Assembly (NCBI GenBank): GCA_945873955.1
Contig: CAMCFA010000021.1
Coordinates: 1-37,158 of the forward strand
Source: an uncultured Clostridia bacterium
Lineage (GTDB): Bacteria > Bacillota > Clostridia > Oscillospirales > Ruminococcaceae
DNA: 37,158 nt
Reading direction: 5' to 3'
In this document: piece by piece, positions 1,776 to 32,953 of the stretch
How the letters are laid out: each line of letters starts with the position of its first letter
How positions within the stretch are numbered: the stretch's first letter is position 1
Notes under the pieces: generated by a model
Told to the model about the DNA's origin: nothing
Database searches by the model: none
Seen by the model: only the letters and a program-made list of their open reading frames with translations
Translations under genes and position numbers: made by a program

Positions 1776-1804
1776 TTGACAATTTTATGCTTATGCGGTA
1801 TAAT
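1776..1804 (+). promoter_or_regulatory. Consensus promoter for the RNase J transcript
   Basis: A perfect TTGACA (1776-1781), 17-nt spacer and perfect TATAAT (1799-1804) are visible. The predicted start of transcription is near 1811, over 500 nt ahead of the RNase J start codon. No competing consensus promoter was seen closer to the gene. Confidence 0.82.
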
Positions 1805-25030: not shown

Positions 25031-25462
25031 TTACTCCTTTGCAACAGTCCGTGAAGTTTTGTGATCCGCGTTTTCTGGCGGCTTTCCGCCGAATCTGTCC
25101 AGCAGCTTTGAAAGCCCGCTTTTTCGGAGCAGGAATACCCTGCGGTCGCTCATGTACAGGTCAAGGGCAAGCTGCTGCCAGTTCTTTGCTAAAATGTAGT
25201 AGCCCTCGATCACGCTGCGCTCCTCCCCGGAGAGATAGCTTATGTACCGAAGAGCCTCCCGCTTTGCGTCCACCATTTCGTCGATAGAGTAGTTCAGCTC
25301 TCGTTCCAGCCCGGCGAGTTTTTCCACTGTTTCAGCGGCGCAGGCGGAGGAGTTCTTCGCCCGGTTCGCTATGCGGTGAAGTCTTTCTATATGTTCAAGC
25401 TGGGTTTGTATTTCAAGTTCCATGGACCTTGCCCGCTGGAGGGCGCCCATTACGTCCGGCAT
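25031..25462 (-). CDS. DUF1492/sigma-70 region 4-like phage-type regulator
   Basis: This 143-residue protein has an N-terminal coiled-coil-like region (about 8-60, heptad-like Leu/Ile spacing) followed by a region-4-like helix-turn-helix: LSGEERSVIEGYYILAKNW (about 78-96), QQLALDLYMS and RRVFLLRKSGLSKLL. This pattern fits DUF1492, a phage-associated family distantly like sigma region 4. It is the first gene of the cassette. The ATG at 25462 follows AAAGGAG. It lies 4 nt upstream of the XRE gene. No integrase, structural phage gene or attachment site is nearby. Confidence 0.7.
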   Translation of the reverse strand: MPDVMGALQRARSMELEIQTQLEHIERLHRIANRAKNSSACAAETVEKLAGLERELNYSIDEMVDAKREALRYISYLSGEERSVIEGYYILAKNWQQLALDLYMSDRRVFLLRKSGLSKLLDRFGGKPPENADHKTSRTVAKE

Positions 25463-25483: not shown

Positions 25484-25542
25484 TGTTCACATAAGTTCTT
25501 TCTTGTGAACAAATTATACCACAAGAAACTTGTCTTTGTCAA
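25484..25542 (-). promoter_or_regulatory. Promoter with overlapping operator dyads for the XRE-ImmA cassette
   Basis: On the minus strand TTGACA (25537-25542), an 18-nt spacer and TATAAT (25513-25518) are visible. Three dyads overlap it. TTTCTTGTG-N12-CACAAGAAA (25499-25507 and 25520-25528) is a perfect 9-bp repeat bracketing the -10 box. TGTTCACA-N12-TGTGAACA (25484-25491 and 25504-25511) is a perfect 8-bp repeat over the transcription start. ACAAG-AAA-CTTGT (25521-25533) lies between -35 and -10. The first two have the same 12-nt spacing. They are good candidates for binding sites of the XRE protein encoded downstream. Confidence 0.72.
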
Positions 25543-27408: not shown

Positions 27409-27585
27409 ATGGCTAAAACTCACACCATGAAGCAGGACGCAGATCTTGTCCGCGGCAGCGATAAGCCCAAGGACGTACATCTGCATAACGAGCTTCACCC
27501 CGACGACAGAAAAACGGGAAAGGGAGTTAAGGAAAGCAAGCAGTTCAACGAGAATTGCAGCTTCAACATCAACCATACCAAGTAA
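27409..27585 (+). CDS. Small hypothetical protein, 58 residues
   Basis: An ATG at 27409 opens 58 codons ending in TAA at 27583-27585. The product is hydrophilic and rich in Lys, Asp, Asn and His (starting MAKTHTMKQDADLVRGSDK, ending NFNINHTK-like), with one cysteine and no membrane segment. Codon choice resembles neighbouring genes. It lies 18 nt after gdhA and before the terminator, so it would share the gdhA transcript. The ribosome site (CCGGTGG) is weak, so translation may depend on coupling. I do not recognise the family. Confidence 0.55.
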   Translation: MAKTHTMKQDADLVRGSDKPKDVHLHNELHPDDRKTGKGVKESKQFNENCSFNINHTK

Positions 27586-27588
27586 AAT

Positions 27589-27622
27589 GATCCGCTCTGG
27601 CGTTTGCCGGGGCGGATCTTTT
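27589..27622 (+). terminator. Intrinsic terminator of the gdhA transcript
   Basis: GATCCGC (27589-27595) pairs with GCGGATC (27612-27618), extended by CTGG/CCGG inside, and is followed by TTTT. It lies 3 nt past the small ORF stop. Confidence 0.85.
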
Positions 27623-27712: not shown

Positions 27713-27741
27713 TTGACAAATTACCCACCGCGGTATATAAT
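27713..27741 (+). promoter_or_regulatory. Housekeeping-type promoter of the giant flagellin
   Basis: TTGACA (27713-27718), a 17-nt spacer and TATAAT (27736-27741) form a full vegetative consensus. Transcription would start near 27748. No sigma-28/SigD-type sequence (TAAA then GCCGATAA) was seen upstream. Confidence 0.82.
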
Positions 27742-27776
27742 AAATAATGAAGAACTATATGCAAAGGGTGAGTTGC

Positions 27777-30700
27777 TTGAACATCTCCAATAACGACATG
27801 GTACGTACCGCGAACCGCGGAAAGCGGGCTGAATCCAAGCTGGCGCAGGCAACGCACAGGCTCAGCTCCGGCTACCGTGTGAATTCCGCCGCAGATGACG
27901 CTGCCGGTCTTGCAATATCTGAAAAGCTCAGGGCTATCGACCGTGGGCTCAGACAGGGCATGCGCAATATCAACGACGGTATCAGCTATATCGACACCGT
28001 TGACGGAGCCGCGCAGGAGTTAAACAGCATGCTCCACCGCATGAAGGAGATAGCGGTGGAGGCGGCGAACGGCAATTATGACGATATCGACCGCAGCGCC
28101 CTTGATCTGGAGTACCAGCAGCTCATAGACGAGATAGGGCAGATCAGCGACTCTGCCGAATTCAACGGCATACCTCTGTTCGAGCGGCATTACCCGGAGT
28201 ACGAAAAGGACGAGGGCATGGTCGTCCATGAAAAACCGGTCACCATTGACAGCACGAACGACACGCTGGTGCTGGGATATACTATGAACGGCGCTCAGAA
28301 AGAGTATACCGTGCATATCCCGCGGGGCGTGTACAGTGTAGAGGAGCTTGCGGACGTCATTGACACAGACCTTTTTGACAACAGAAACGGTCTGATAATC
28401 GGCGTGAACGACCAGAAGCAGCTCACCATGCAGTGTGAGGGCGGCAAGCTGGACTACATAAGCGGAAACGCGTCGTCGCTGTTCTATGATACGGTCATAG
28501 GCTCCTCCGACGGCTATCTGCTGGGAGTTACCACGTTCTCCAACGATTACAACGCGGAGCTTGAAATAATCACGGGCAAGAACGACGTTATCGCTTTCCG
28601 GCTTGGCAACGAGGACGACACACTGTACTCTATCACCCTTGATCCGGGGAAGTATGTAAGACCCGCGCTGGTGCAGGAGATCAACGAAAAGCTGGACGCG
28701 GCAGGGCTTCCCTGCAAGGTTGAGGCTGTAATGCAGGACAATGCCGACGGCAAGAAGATAATCGGTCTGAAAAGCGAGAAAACAATGACCGGACTTTCCG
28801 GCAACTTTCTGATGATTGACGGCGGAAGCGTTCCGATACATTCGCCGATATATGATATATGCTGTTACAGCACGCTGGTGAACAGCGAGGCAACGCTTAC
28901 CGGCACCAAGTCCGTTCTGGCGGGGCTTGAAATAGAGCGCGGCAGAAACGACTATTTCGTGCTGGACGCAGGCTGGTACACCGGGGACGGAGTATCAAAG
29001 ACGGAAAAGCTGCGAATTGAGCTTCTGGACGCCGGAGAAAACCTCAAGACCTATACCAGCGGCGGGCAGCTCCTAGACCGCATAAACGAGCAGCTTGAGG
29101 CTCTTGACTGCCCGATAACGGCGGAGCTTACCTCCGGCGGCGCGCTGAAATTCACTACGCTGCAATACGGCAAGGAGTGCAAGATAAAGCTGGACACCTC
29201 CGACGTGCCGAGCGGATACATGGTGTATGACCTGTTCGACAATGCTACGCTTTCGACCCTCAGCCCGTGGAAAACCACGTCCTCTTATACTGCGGCGTGC
29301 TTTAATGCTAAAAAGCCACTGGGCGGCAGCATAATCATTCCGGCGACGCATAACCAGCTTTCGTTCACCGTCGGGATCGAGGAAGCCGGCGCAGTCACCA
29401 GCCGCACCCTTGATTTTGATATCCCGACGGGAACATATACTCAGGCGCAGCTAAACACCAAGCTGAACGATCTTCTTTCGTCCGGCTATCCCGACCTCAG
29501 CGACAAGCTGTATTTCAGTGTCGGTTCAACGCTGACCCTCAGCGCAAACGGGCTTAAAGGCTCTGACATAACCTCAATAAAAGCGAACAGCAGTTCTGCG
29601 TACAGTCGTCTGATCTACGGTCCGGTGTACTACGACAATATCGACGCATCGCATTCCTCCGGCACGGAAAAGGATCTGGTGTCCTACGGCAGCGGAGTTC
29701 CCGGGACAAGCCGTCCCAATGTTACCAGTACAGCGGGAAAAACCCAGACCGCCGTGACCTACACCAGCGTTTTCAACCCGTCGGAGAGCCAGCAGTCGGG
29801 GAATTATCTGAATTATTCCACGGTCACTGAAAACAAGGATAAGGGTGAAACCATATTCACCGGGATAGAGGGTCAAGTCACCGGTCCGGAATCATATACC
29901 TACACGCCGGCGGTCATGACTATCCCAAATGCGCTCACCCAGTTCACCGCCGCAGGGACTTCCCTCCGGGAAACGGCGCTGACCTTTGATCTGTCCGATA
30001 AAGACGGAAACTTCACAACTTACAGCGTTACCGTGCCAAAGGGATCAACTGCCGCACAGGCGGTGAACAAGCTCAACGAAGCTCTGTCGGGGGTCGCGGC
30101 TGTCGCGGCGGACGGAAACAATCTGGTTTTCACCTCCGTGGCGAAGGGCGAAAATGTGATGTTCGACAAGGTGAGCGGCACGCTGAAATGCCGCGCCGAC
30201 AAGAATTCACTTGCTTCGCAGTCCGGCGCAGTGGTGGACTCAGAAAACAACAAGGTATATAAGCCGTCAAAGCTGACTTTGTCCGCCGCCGGTTCGCATA
30301 TTCCGCTTATCGTCGGCACTGACAATGACCGCTTTAAATTCACTGCCGGCGGTCACAGCTATGATATCAGTCTTACTCACGGGACATATAATTCTTTGTC
30401 GGAGCTGGCGGACGAGCTTAACGCTAAGATCTCCGCAAAGGACGGCGGTTCTCCCGCGACCACAGTCGCGGTGAACGGTTCTACGCTGGTGATCACCGGT
30501 CCGCTGAAGGAATCCGGCAGTATCACAGTGGACGCAAGCTCCACCTGCAAGCTGCACCAGAAAAAGAACGTGAGCGATGTCGTGTCTTCGCCGTATTACG
30601 ACCCGGCTACCGGCAATGCGGAGATCCCGGCGAGTATCCGCGCCGAGGGTATCGACAGCCATTTCCCGCTGACGGTGGACAGCTCCAACAACACCATAAC

Positions 30701-32912
30701 TATGGACTACACAAGCCCCGACCCGGCGAATCCCGGCAGCAGTATCACAGAGAAGCTGACGATCACCCTGCCGGACGGGACGTACAACAGCGGCGCCGAC
30801 CTCACCGCGGCGATTAATTCGGCTATCGCGGCTGATCCGGCGCTTAACGGAAAGATCAAAGCCAGCTATTCTTCCTCCGGCTCTGACAAGGGACTGACGT
30901 TCCGGACGGTGAAGGGCGGAAACGGGTATTCTCTGACAAACCTCAGCGGCACTGCGAAGCTGGATCAGTACAAAACCACCAACAGCAGTTCTGGCGGCAC
31001 CGCTGTTCCGGACGAGAACAAGATAAAGTACCCCGCGTATATCCAGAACACCCAGTTCAACACCCTTTTCACCGGGGAAGGCGTTGAGATAAACGACTTG
31101 AACAATTTCGTGTCGCTTAAAGTGAACGGCACGGACTACAAGTTCACTATCCCGGAGGGGGAGTACTCCGGCTCCTCCGGGCAGAATGCGCTGGTGGCAG
31201 CGCTCAATAACGGACTTTCCGGCGCGGGAGTTACGGTTTCCGTCAGCGGGAACACGCTGCGTATCACCACCGACGCAGTTGGTACGTCTGCCTCTGTCAG
31301 CCTGAATGCTGATAATACCGCGCCATACTTCAAGCGTGCGCAGAGCTGCCCGGCGTCCCAGCAGATAAACCGGGCTTCGCAGCCCTGCCAGCTTATCGGC
31401 AGAACCACTATTTCTACGATCGACATTGAGGACTACTTTAATGAGATGAAATTCACCTATACGGAAAAGGGAAGCTCCGTGGAGGTGAACGTTTCCGTAC
31501 CGCCGGGGACATACACCGCAAACCAGCTTGCCGCGGCTATCCAAGCCAGCATTGACGCTACGCTGCCGGCGGACTCCCTCGTGGTAGGCGTGTCGGGCGG
31601 GAAGCTCACGATCACCGGCGCGGATATCTCGGATACCCGCGGGATCAGCAATTTCAGCGGCAGGCTGTTTGACCGCGTGTTTCAGAATCCTCAGTATACA
31701 AATATCACGCGGCACACGGAGAAGGTCGGCACGACCACCGGGTCGGCGGTATCATATATCGTCGGCAGGAACACCCTCCAGCCGGAATCGGCAGAGGAGC
31801 TGGAGAGCGGGAAGAATGTGATGATCTTTTCGGGGCTGAACGATAACGTTGTGTTCGACCTTACTTACAAGGGCGAGAAGTACAAGGTCGAGTTCCAGAT
31901 ACCCGCCGGTGGCTATATGCCGCAGGAGCTTGCGGACGCAGTGCAGACCGCCGGGCGGAGCGCTCTGGCGGCAATGACCGACGTCAACGGCGATCCTCTG
32001 CCGGCGGATCATTTCCATGCCACGATAGGTCTTGGCGGGCTTGGCATAGCAGACACCGGACATACGGCTATATCGCCGTCGGATAAGCTGGTGCTTAGCT
32101 ATGTCCTGCCGGACGACGGCACGATAAAGGTGTCTGACGCGATAATAGACGGCGTGCGCGGAAATTCGGCGTACAGGATATTCTATGATGCGACCCAGTC
32201 GCCCCGCCCGTCAAGGGTGCTGGGAAAAGCGGACCTCAGCGACGGTATCTCTATCCATGCCGGGGTGAACGATACCTTGTCTATGAATCTGGACGGCAGC
32301 GATATTACGGTGACGATACCGTCCGGCAGCTACACATGTGACGATCTGTCCGAAGCGCTTAACCAGAAGTACGCGGAGCTTGGCAGCATTATACGGACAT
32401 TTAACAACAATGGACACTTGATGTTCTACACAACGGAGAACGGCGCTTATTATATCGGCAGGTTCACCGGAAACGCCGCGGACGACCTGTTCTACGGCGC
32501 TGACAAGCGTGATGACGATGATGAGATAGGCATTCACACCGGCCGCAGGACGGACAGCTACATCTGGTACAGCAAGACCCGCGCGGACGACCACCTCATG
32601 CGGATAAACACCACCGGAGTGACTACGGTTGACCGCGCGCTGAAAGCGATAGACCGTATCGACTACGCGAACAACTATCTTCTGCAATGGAGGGCGCTCG
32701 CCGGAGCGATACACAACCGTTCGGAGTACACCTACGAACGCAACCAGAACTACGTTGAAAATCTTGAGGCAGCCGAGTCCGGTATCCGTGACGCGGATAT
32801 CCCCGGCGAACTGGCGAAAGCCGCTAAGGAGAAGCTCATCATGCAGGCGCAGAGCTATATTCTGGCGAGCCAGAAAGAGAATCAGCAGTCAATAATGGAC
32901 GTCATGGCTTGA
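27777..32912 (+). CDS. Giant flagellin with about eleven insertion modules
   Basis: The start is taken as TTG 27777, with AAAGGG (27763-27768) 8 nt upstream. In-frame ATGs at 27747 and 27759 sit at or before the predicted transcription start or lack a site. The product has 1711 residues against 270-550 for ordinary flagellins. The N-terminal D0/D1 region (1 to about 145) contains ATHRLSSGYRVNSAADDAAG and the TLR5-type segment HRMKEIAVEAANG. The C-terminal D1/D0 region (about 1608-1711) contains NYVENLEAAESGIRDADI and ends SIMDVMA. Between them, modules begin near 155, 260, 381, 517, 724, 841, 963, 1098, 1209, 1348 and 1491. Most carry a P-x-G-x-Y turn (IPRGVY, IPTGTY, LPDGTY, IPEGEY, VPPGTY, IPAGGY, IPSGSY), resembling Flagellin_IN repeats. 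About 12 cysteines occur, which is unusual for a flagellin. No other flagellar gene is in the window. Confidence 0.9.
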   Translation: MNISNNDMVRTANRGKRAESKLAQATHRLSSGYRVNSAADDAAGLAISEKLRAIDRGLRQGMRNINDGISYIDTVDGAAQELNSMLHRMKEIAVEAANGNYDDIDRSALDLEYQQLIDEIGQISDSAEFNGIPLFERHYPEYEKDEGMVVHEKPVTIDSTNDTLVLGYTMNGAQKEYTVHIPRGVYSVEELADVIDTDLFDNRNGLIIGVNDQKQLTMQCEGGKLDYISGNASSLFYDTVIGSSDGYLLGVTTFSNDYNAELEIITGKNDVIAFRLGNEDDTLYSITLDPGKYVRPALVQEINEKLDAAGLPCKVEAVMQDNADGKKIIGLKSEKTMTGLSGNFLMIDGGSVPIHSPIYDICCYSTLVNSEATLTGTKSVLAGLEIERGRNDYFVLDAGWYTGDGVSKTEKLRIELLDAGENLKTYTSGGQLLDRINEQLEALDCPITAELTSGGALKFTTLQYGKECKIKLDTSDVPSGYMVYDLFDNATLSTLSPWKTTSSYTAACFNAKKPLGGSIIIPATHNQLSFTVGIEEAGAVTSRTLDFDIPTGTYTQAQLNTKLNDLLSSGYPDLSDKLYFSVGSTLTLSANGLKGSDITSIKANSSSAYSRLIYGPVYYDNIDASHSSGTEKDLVSYGSGVPGTSRPNVTSTAGKTQTAVTYTSVFNPSESQQSGNYLNYSTVTENKDKGETIFTGIEGQVTGPESYTYTPAVMTIPNALTQFTAAGTSLRETALTFDLSDKDGNFTTYSVTVPKGSTAAQAVNKLNEALSGVAAVAADGNNLVFTSVAKGENVMFDKVSGTLKCRADKNSLASQSGAVVDSENNKVYKPSKLTLSAAGSHIPLIVGTDNDRFKFTAGGHSYDISLTHGTYNSLSELADELNAKISAKDGGSPATTVAVNGSTLVITGPLKESGSITVDASSTCKLHQKKNVSDVVSSPYYDPATGNAEIPASIRAEGIDSHFPLTVDSSNNTITMDYTSPDPANPGSSITEKLTITLPDGTYNSGADLTAAINSAIAADPALNGKIKASYSSSGSDKGLTFRTVKGGNGYSLTNLSGTAKLDQYKTTNSSSGGTAVPDENKIKYPAYIQNTQFNTLFTGEGVEINDLNNFVSLKVNGTDYKFTIPEGEYSGSSGQNALVAALNNGLSGAGVTVSVSGNTLRITTDAVGTSASVSLNADNTAPYFKRAQSCPASQQINRASQPCQLIGRTTISTIDIEDYFNEMKFTYTEKGSSVEVNVSVPPGTYTANQLAAAIQASIDATLPADSLVVGVSGGKLTITGADISDTRGISNFSGRLFDRVFQNPQYTNITRHTEKVGTTTGSAVSYIVGRNTLQPESAEELESGKNVMIFSGLNDNVVFDLTYKGEKYKVEFQIPAGGYMPQELADAVQTAGRSALAAMTDVNGDPLPADHFHATIGLGGLGIADTGHTAISPSDKLVLSYVLPDDGTIKVSDAIIDGVRGNSAYRIFYDATQSPRPSRVLGKADLSDGISIHAGVNDTLSMNLDGSDITVTIPSGSYTCDDLSEALNQKYAELGSIIRTFNNNGHLMFYTTENGAYYIGRFTGNAADDLFYGADKRDDDDEIGIHTGRRTDSYIWYSKTRADDHLMRINTTGVTTVDRALKAIDRIDYANNYLLQWRALAGAIHNRSEYTYERNQNYVENLEAAESGIRDADIPGELAKAAKEKLIMQAQSYILASQKENQQSIMDVMA

Positions 32913-32922
32913 CAAAATATGT

Positions 32923-32953
32923 ATGGGAGGGGCGCTGCCTCTCCCATGTTTTA
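32923..32953 (+). terminator. Terminator after the giant flagellin
   Basis: ATGGGAGGGG pairs with CCTCTCCCAT (one G-T pair) around CGCTG, followed by GTTTTA. The T-run is short, so the terminator is moderate. Confidence 0.7.

Follow-up and report, generated by a model that had tools for sequence, protein, structure and literature searches.

The gene and its product

The analysed DNA is a window of 37,158 bases on contig C21 of the draft genome of an uncultured Clostridia bacterium (3.47 Mb, 172 contigs, 99.68% complete). A single open reading frame at positions 27777–32912 of the forward strand, which begins with a TTG start codon, encodes a protein of 1,711 residues. This protein scores above the curated Pfam cut-offs of Flagellin_N (118.8 versus 26.6 bits) and Flagellin_C (40.6 versus 23 bits). 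Judged by these core domains it is a flagellin, and since it has a D0/D1 core it should polymerise, which predicts its assembly into a filament. With 1,711 residues, and orthologues of similar length, it belongs to the giant flagellins, which are longer than 1,000 residues (Thomson et al. 2018). The initial annotation had described one flagellin of about 1711 residues, in which normal N- and C-terminal regions flank about 11 copies of a module, and this description is confirmed by the Pfam cores and by the module profiles.

An insert of eleven tandem modules

The insert between the two cores comprises 1,430 residues and consists of 11 divergent tandem modules, M1–M11 (Table 1). Each of them is detected by a profile from which it had been left out, with scores of 27–65 bits; the best shuffled sequence reached 11. 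Ordinary flagellins carry one or a few copies of such a surface domain, and the giant carries eleven. No pattern of out-and-back pairing of the modules could be read from the matrix of module Z values, and this candidate was rejected.

The structure predicted for one module, M7, has a predicted local distance difference test score (pLDDT) of 81–94 over residues 11–110. It is a beta-beta-alpha-beta-beta(-beta) domain of the type seen in flagellin and FliD and resembles the outer domains of flagellar proteins. The best matches were Vibrio flagellins, and families missing from this match list are not excluded by it. The prediction of four modules together gave a pLDDT of 52.6. In a profile search against the PDB sequences the best match had an E value of 0.037 and was taken as chance. 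The repeated fold on which the initial annotation depended is represented by one predicted module structure, common to the other modules by sequence, and its claim of a very large array of outer-domain repeats is supported by the sequence, the orthologues and this predicted fold.

The relation of the modules to Flagellin_IN (PF07196), which the initial annotation had named for comparison, is a weak one. The whole-protein score stayed below the threshold (19.6 versus 22.7 bits), while 3 of the 22 module sequences matched singly at E ≤ 0.1, the best at 7e-6. The Pfam model is a short motif of 55 positions that overlaps a few modules, compared with 120 positions in the module profile. The same scans of the whole protein and the 22 module sequences revealed no peptidase family, and the metallopeptidase in the insert that characterises flagellinolysins is therefore not seen. 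The only binding family there was GalBD_like, matched weakly (E 0.0005) by a single module sequence, so the earlier suggestion of adhesion or glycan binding gained no positive evidence. Weak matches to EAL (E 0.009), DUF3383, DUF6081, Prim-Pol, DUF2922 and PD40, each in one of the 22 sequences, were taken as chance. An enzyme or lectin insert was dropped as a candidate after these scans.

Table 1. Features of the giant flagellin locus; positions refer to the window
Feature	Position	Strand	Basis or remark
Terminator-like hairpin, upstream; separates giant gene from gdhA side	27589..27618	+	consensus scan only
Sigma-A-type promoter TTGACA-17-TATAAT, 12/12	27713..27741	+	exact pattern: mean 0.00 matches in window shuffles
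Likely ribosome binding site AAAGGGTGAG	27763..27772	+	read from sequence
Giant flagellin coding sequence, TTG start, 1,711 residues	27777..32912	+	
N-terminal D0/D1 core, residues 1–148	27777..28220	+	Flagellin_N
M1	28221..28538	+	position kept in 8/8 distant homologues
M2	28539..28895	+	position kept in 8/8 distant homologues
M3	28896..29297	+	interior
M4	29298..29927	+	interior, long linker
M5	29928..30266	+	interior; sole stretch with weak Flagellin_IN match in whole-protein scan
M6	30267..30632	+	interior
M7	30633..31046	+	interior; structure predicted
M8	31047..31379	+	interior
M9	31380..31793	+	position kept in 8/8 distant homologues
M10	31794..32216	+	position kept in 6/8 distant homologues
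M11	32217..32510	+	position kept in 8/8 distant homologues
C-terminal D1/D0 core, residues 1579–1711	32511..32909	+	Flagellin_C, orthologue alignment
Weak terminator-like hairpin, downstream	32925..32943	+	consensus scan only

Orthologues within the genus

Full-length matches were obtained in 5 of the 61 genomes of a search among relatives, namely in the own genome and in 4 of 36 genus mates. The four orthologues, with frames of 1,704–1,777 residues, are 73, 62, 52 and 50% identical to the window protein and align with it end to end. The per-module identity is 61–81% in the closest orthologue and decreases to 37–59% in G028; the cores are somewhat better conserved than the modules, with 80–82% and 61–65% in the same two proteins. 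The module profile finds exactly 11 domains in all four orthologues, three of which were not used in its construction. Among 28 scanned genus flagellins, it gave no match at E ≤ 10 in the 24 that are not giant. A wider scan covered 257 frames of at least 150 residues from 23 genus loci; a looser motif classed 31 of these frames as flagellin-like, and no further module came up at this threshold. In total, the insert is present in 5 of 43 genus genomes, a sixth marginal match (E 0.395) not being counted, and a flagellin N-core is present in 29 of the 43. A plasmid search returned 186 records, all below 60% identity and none covering 80% of the query.

The draft state of the genome and the broken frame of one distant homologue (G864, see below) might point to an assembly fusion, which the initial annotation had named as a condition that would overturn it, or to a decayed gene. 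Both are refuted for the window gene by five open and colinear genes of similar length in five assemblies, conserved over their whole length, and the chance of such an artefact is negligible.

The conservation of the insert is unusual when compared with that of ordinary flagellins. In the six pairs formed by the four fetched giants, the N-core identity is 60–74% and the insert identity 45–58%. The 24 ordinary genus flagellins (276 pairs) have a mean N-core identity of 83% and a mean insert identity of 35% (7–84%). When only the 40 ordinary pairs with N-cores in the band of the giants are considered, the insert mean falls to 25% with a maximum of 44%; shuffled partners give 18.6%. Since the giant inserts thus exceed those of ordinary pairs of similar core divergence, the giant insert is held by selection. 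By the same comparison, ordinary flagellin inserts of similar age are nearly free to vary. The giant core itself is less conserved than the ordinary core of the same four genomes (60–77% versus 81–89%, 6 pairs).

Distant homologues

A search for the insert across the order matched 1 of 394 genomes, the own genome, in a sample that included only a few of the genus mates and no other carrier. In another clostridial family, an even draw of 200 genomes from a larger group contained eight with giant homologues of 1,262–1,824 residues. At E < 0.01, the homologues of G820, G938 and G823 contain 11 modules, those of G931 and G785 10, that of G864 nine and those of G829 and G959 eight. When weak matches are counted, G785 and G864 also reach 11. 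The giant flagellin of G864 (locus L111, G864:C39, 5536–10802) is split into two overlapping frames of 172 and 1,620 residues, which reflects either a sequencing error or a decayed gene.

The modules of the distant homologues were scored against position-specific profiles of M1–M11. The first module is M1-like, the second M2-like and the third from last M9-like in all eight proteins. The last is M11-like, again in 8/8, if a spurious match that follows the final module of G959 is set aside, and the penultimate module is M10-like in six, one of these six being nearly tied. The interior modules are mostly unmatched by position. Since the end modules keep their positions and the interior does not, the frame M1-M2 ... 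M9-M10-M11 would be either ancestral or moved as a unit, and the interior would have turned over. An independent origin of the array in the other family is refuted by these matches for the end modules, though not for the interior. In a tree of the N-cores, which is based on about 145 columns and lacks G931, the genus giants group, at a local support of 0.96, with the ordinary flagellins of their genus and apart from the other family's giants. This grouping is in keeping with pressure on the cores to suit a single filament, or with an insert that has moved.

A second flagellin N-core is encoded in four of the five genus carriers, and the 73%-complete genome G018 contains only a C-terminal fragment. 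Further Flagellin_N genes, some of them FlgL, occur in all eight carriers of the other family. The window gene therefore belongs to a conserved family of giant flagellins that are kept beside ordinary ones in Clostridia.

Across the class, a single-module profile matched 34 of 391 genomes. Loci were examined in 13 of these 34, and 12 proteins from 11 loci held module matches. Their ends, inspected by eye, indicate seven FliD-like and three FlgL-like proteins and two flagellins, which have 1,824 and 929 residues and come from two further families. The 1,824-residue flagellin belongs to the family with the eight giant homologues. The occurrence of the same module type in FliD-like, FlgL-like and flagellin proteins suggests that one outer-domain family is common to the flagellar axial proteins of Clostridia.

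Promoters and genomic context

The giant gene, as far as its putative signals indicate, stands alone with its own promoter and terminators. It is neighboured by genes for a glutamate dehydrogenase and a citrate-transporter-type protein. A small open reading frame of about 58 codons (27409–27585, +) lies just past the glutamate dehydrogenase gene and is followed by the upstream terminator-like hairpin. The 18 other window proteins scanned, which include ribosomal protein L9, DnaB, an M41 protease and phosphofructokinases, contain no flagellar family, and no glycosyltransferase is found among them beside the gene. They contain no mobile-element family either, and a mobile or phage origin was rejected. 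By BLAST, none of the available neighbour genes of the five genus loci, two of which lie on short contigs (7 and 10 kb), is shared between loci, except for a related sensor-type protein in two of them (41% identity). In three of the eight loci of the other family (L082, L110 and L112) glycosyltransferase genes adjoin the giant flagellin and may encode enzymes that glycosylate it; no flagellar family was seen among the scanned neighbours of these eight giants. The own genome encodes FliD and sigma-28 above cut-off, and FlgK and FlgL were identified by eye.

In the own genome, the giant has a sigma-A-type promoter and an ordinary flagellin of 487 residues a sigma-28-type site. The latter matches at 10/12 positions, a value reached by 8% of shuffles, and such a single site is weak alone. 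Sigma-28 matches of at least 10/12 precede 19 of 32 ordinary flagellins and 2 of 12 giants, both of the latter at 10/12; G931, outside the 12 scored, has a perfect sigma-28 site. Sigma-A matches of at least 11/12 were found for 3 of 12 giants, all at 12/12, and for 2 of 32 ordinary genes. Sigma-A control would accordingly characterise the window gene together with its two closest orthologues and not the giant family, and a general rule that giants use sigma-A was dropped, three members being sigma-28-like. Two more perfect TTGACA/TATAAT promoters are present in the window, at 25513–25542 (−), preceding a minus-strand open reading frame (25031–25462), and at 1776–1804 (+).

Proposed role of the giant flagellin

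From the place of the insert between the core halves, and by analogy with solved flagellins, we infer that the module array is displayed on the filament surface. We favour, with some reservation, the view that the protein is an auxiliary giant flagellin whose insert forms arms or a sheath and so makes the filament stiffer or thicker where the surroundings are viscous. It is likely to be an added subunit because ordinary flagellins are encoded in the same cell. The protein would be exported by the flagellar type III system, and its D0/D1 core would insert into a filament of mostly ordinary flagellin or build stretches of the filament. In the strain studied here it would be made from a housekeeping-type promoter and not on the late flagellar schedule. 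The insert would form a chain of beads that leaves D1 via M1–M2, passes through the variable M3–M8 and comes back via M9–M11, with the fixed end modules packed near the core and the interior modules farthest out. End modules that are constant by the core and a variable interior fit a chain going out and returning. With 3.5–4 nm per module, our rough estimate, five to six modules would make an arm of about 20 nm. The outcome would be long surface arms or a sheath, and the likely effect would be mechanical, a thicker, stiffer or sheathed filament.

The giant could instead make up, alone or for the most part, a thick filament of its own, like that of Bermanella marisrubri, which the cell would use when it does not use the ordinary flagellin. 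A giant of 1,020 residues builds filaments at least 30 nm wide alone, according to the available part of PMC6248924, and the difference in promoter class from the ordinary flagellin of the same genome would allow separate timing. However, Bermanella encodes no flagellin besides its giant, whereas the carriers of both clostridial families encode further flagellin N-cores as described above, and we regard a separate filament as possible but unlikely. Adhesion by the giant flagellin is possible as well. Adhesion is common among long surface arrays of many domains, and flagella are known to adhere. That the array is chiefly an adhesin, with outer modules binding host or dietary glycans or mucin, is nevertheless doubtful: apart from the GalBD_like match no binding family was detected, the fold resembles structural outer domains, and the glycosyltransferase genes that adjoin three of the eight distant homologues, which might be counted in its favour, suggest modification of the flagellin rather than binding and are missing beside the window gene.

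The promoter class bears also on the idea that early synthesis places the giant at a special site, such as the first filament turns by the hook. The housekeeping-type promoters of the window gene and two orthologues would make it present before the sigma-28 flagellin, and the D0 start of the giant differs from that of the ordinary flagellin. With three other family members preceded by sigma-28-like promoters, and with no sequence feature pointing to a junction role, this placement is improbable. The auxiliary flagellin could, in a more speculative form to which we give very little credence, build its own sheath, each arm running along the surface with M1, M2 and M9–M11 on its own core and the interior on neighbouring protofilaments, perhaps with one module per protofilament. 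The filament has eleven protofilaments (PMC6248924, in the part available); the agreement with eleven modules may be chance, since three of the eight distant homologues have 8 or 10. If true, such a sheath would be a conserved, invariant coat that covers the variable ordinary flagellins or is interspersed with them.

Comparison with known flagellins

A 2018 paper described flagellins exceeding 1,000 residues, and 92 UniProt entries of this length with Flagellin_N existed in 2017; the best-studied ones have two tandem DE regions and form filaments at least 30 nm wide (PMC6248924, available part, also for the following). The giants of Oceanospirillales, such as those of Bermanella marisrubri (1,020 residues) and Oleibacter marinus (1,190 residues), share with the window protein the flagellin cores, a total length above 1,000 residues and tandemly duplicated outer regions. 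By their description, they have two DE regions, some with one further insert, and are the only flagellin of the cell, unlike the window giant with its eleven modules and 1,711 residues, which occurs beside ordinary flagellins in Clostridia. A giant from the Firmicutes, that of Eubacterium plexicaudatum, is known here only by its name in the legend of Fig. 1 of that paper and may belong with the clostridial family.

The flagellins of Vibrio cholerae (PDB 9n8h, 9n8a, 9n8m, 9p7r and 9n8g) and FliC of Pseudomonas aeruginosa (4nx9) have one matching outer-domain stretch, compared with eleven modules in the window giant, and the identity is at most 20%. The D2–D3 domains of FliD (6iwy, 5h5v and 5fhy) are module-like, but FliD is the filament cap and has its own terminal regions. 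A parallel in the proposed action is found in the outer-domain-sheath flagellins of enterohaemorrhagic Escherichia coli (EHEC) H7, enteropathogenic E. coli (EPEC) H6 and Achromobacter, described from viscous habitats, whose outer domains pack into a sheath that alters viscous motility (PMC8931119, available part). These flagellins have few outer domains (for EHEC H7, D2, D3 and D4 are named), and the sheath was shown there, whereas it is proposed for the window giant. In the parts available, a review refers briefly to the presence of more than two outer domains and to giant flagellins (PMC9254593), and PMC7018530 cites the 2018 paper. No account of an eleven-module clostridial giant flagellin family was found in the literature searched, which comprised open-licence papers only and is weak evidence of novelty. 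The giant flagellin is an already known kind of protein, and its eleven outer domains are a new variation.

Flagellin inserts are usually hypervariable and often dispensable. Here an eleven-domain insert has preserved its length and the order of its modules throughout a genus in which its identity is about 50%, and two families share its end modules. The giant family offers a natural test of the purpose of outer domains and of the size limit for subunits passing the export channel. The giant flagellin is also a large and comparatively invariant candidate surface antigen of Clostridia.

Other flagellin loci

Ordinary flagellins vary within the genus, and those in the genome of the window seem able to switch. 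In L046 (G000:C18, 12230–18223), and also in L060 (G021:C70), two divergent ordinary flagellin genes flank two serine recombinase genes with Resolvase and Recombinase domains. The 5′ ends of the L046 flagellin genes are inverted repeats of 315 nt with 94% identity, and in both loci a sigma-28-type site (10/12) is present only at the flagellin copy of 486–487 residues. The arrangement, which has the same orientation in both genomes, looks like an invertible flagellin switch. Further flagellin pairs of the genus with inverted repeats of about 430–570 nt are found in L057, L069, L061 and L059, convergent in the first three; in L057 and L069 a perfect sigma-28 site belongs to only one of the two flagellins, its partner having none. 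L052 (G034:C3) and L053 (G009:C16) encode a second class of large flagellins, of 840–846 residues, in which no modules are detectable. Both genes have 11/12 sigma-A-type sites, that of L053 also an 11/12 sigma-28 site, and the cores of their products are set apart from those of the other ordinary flagellins.
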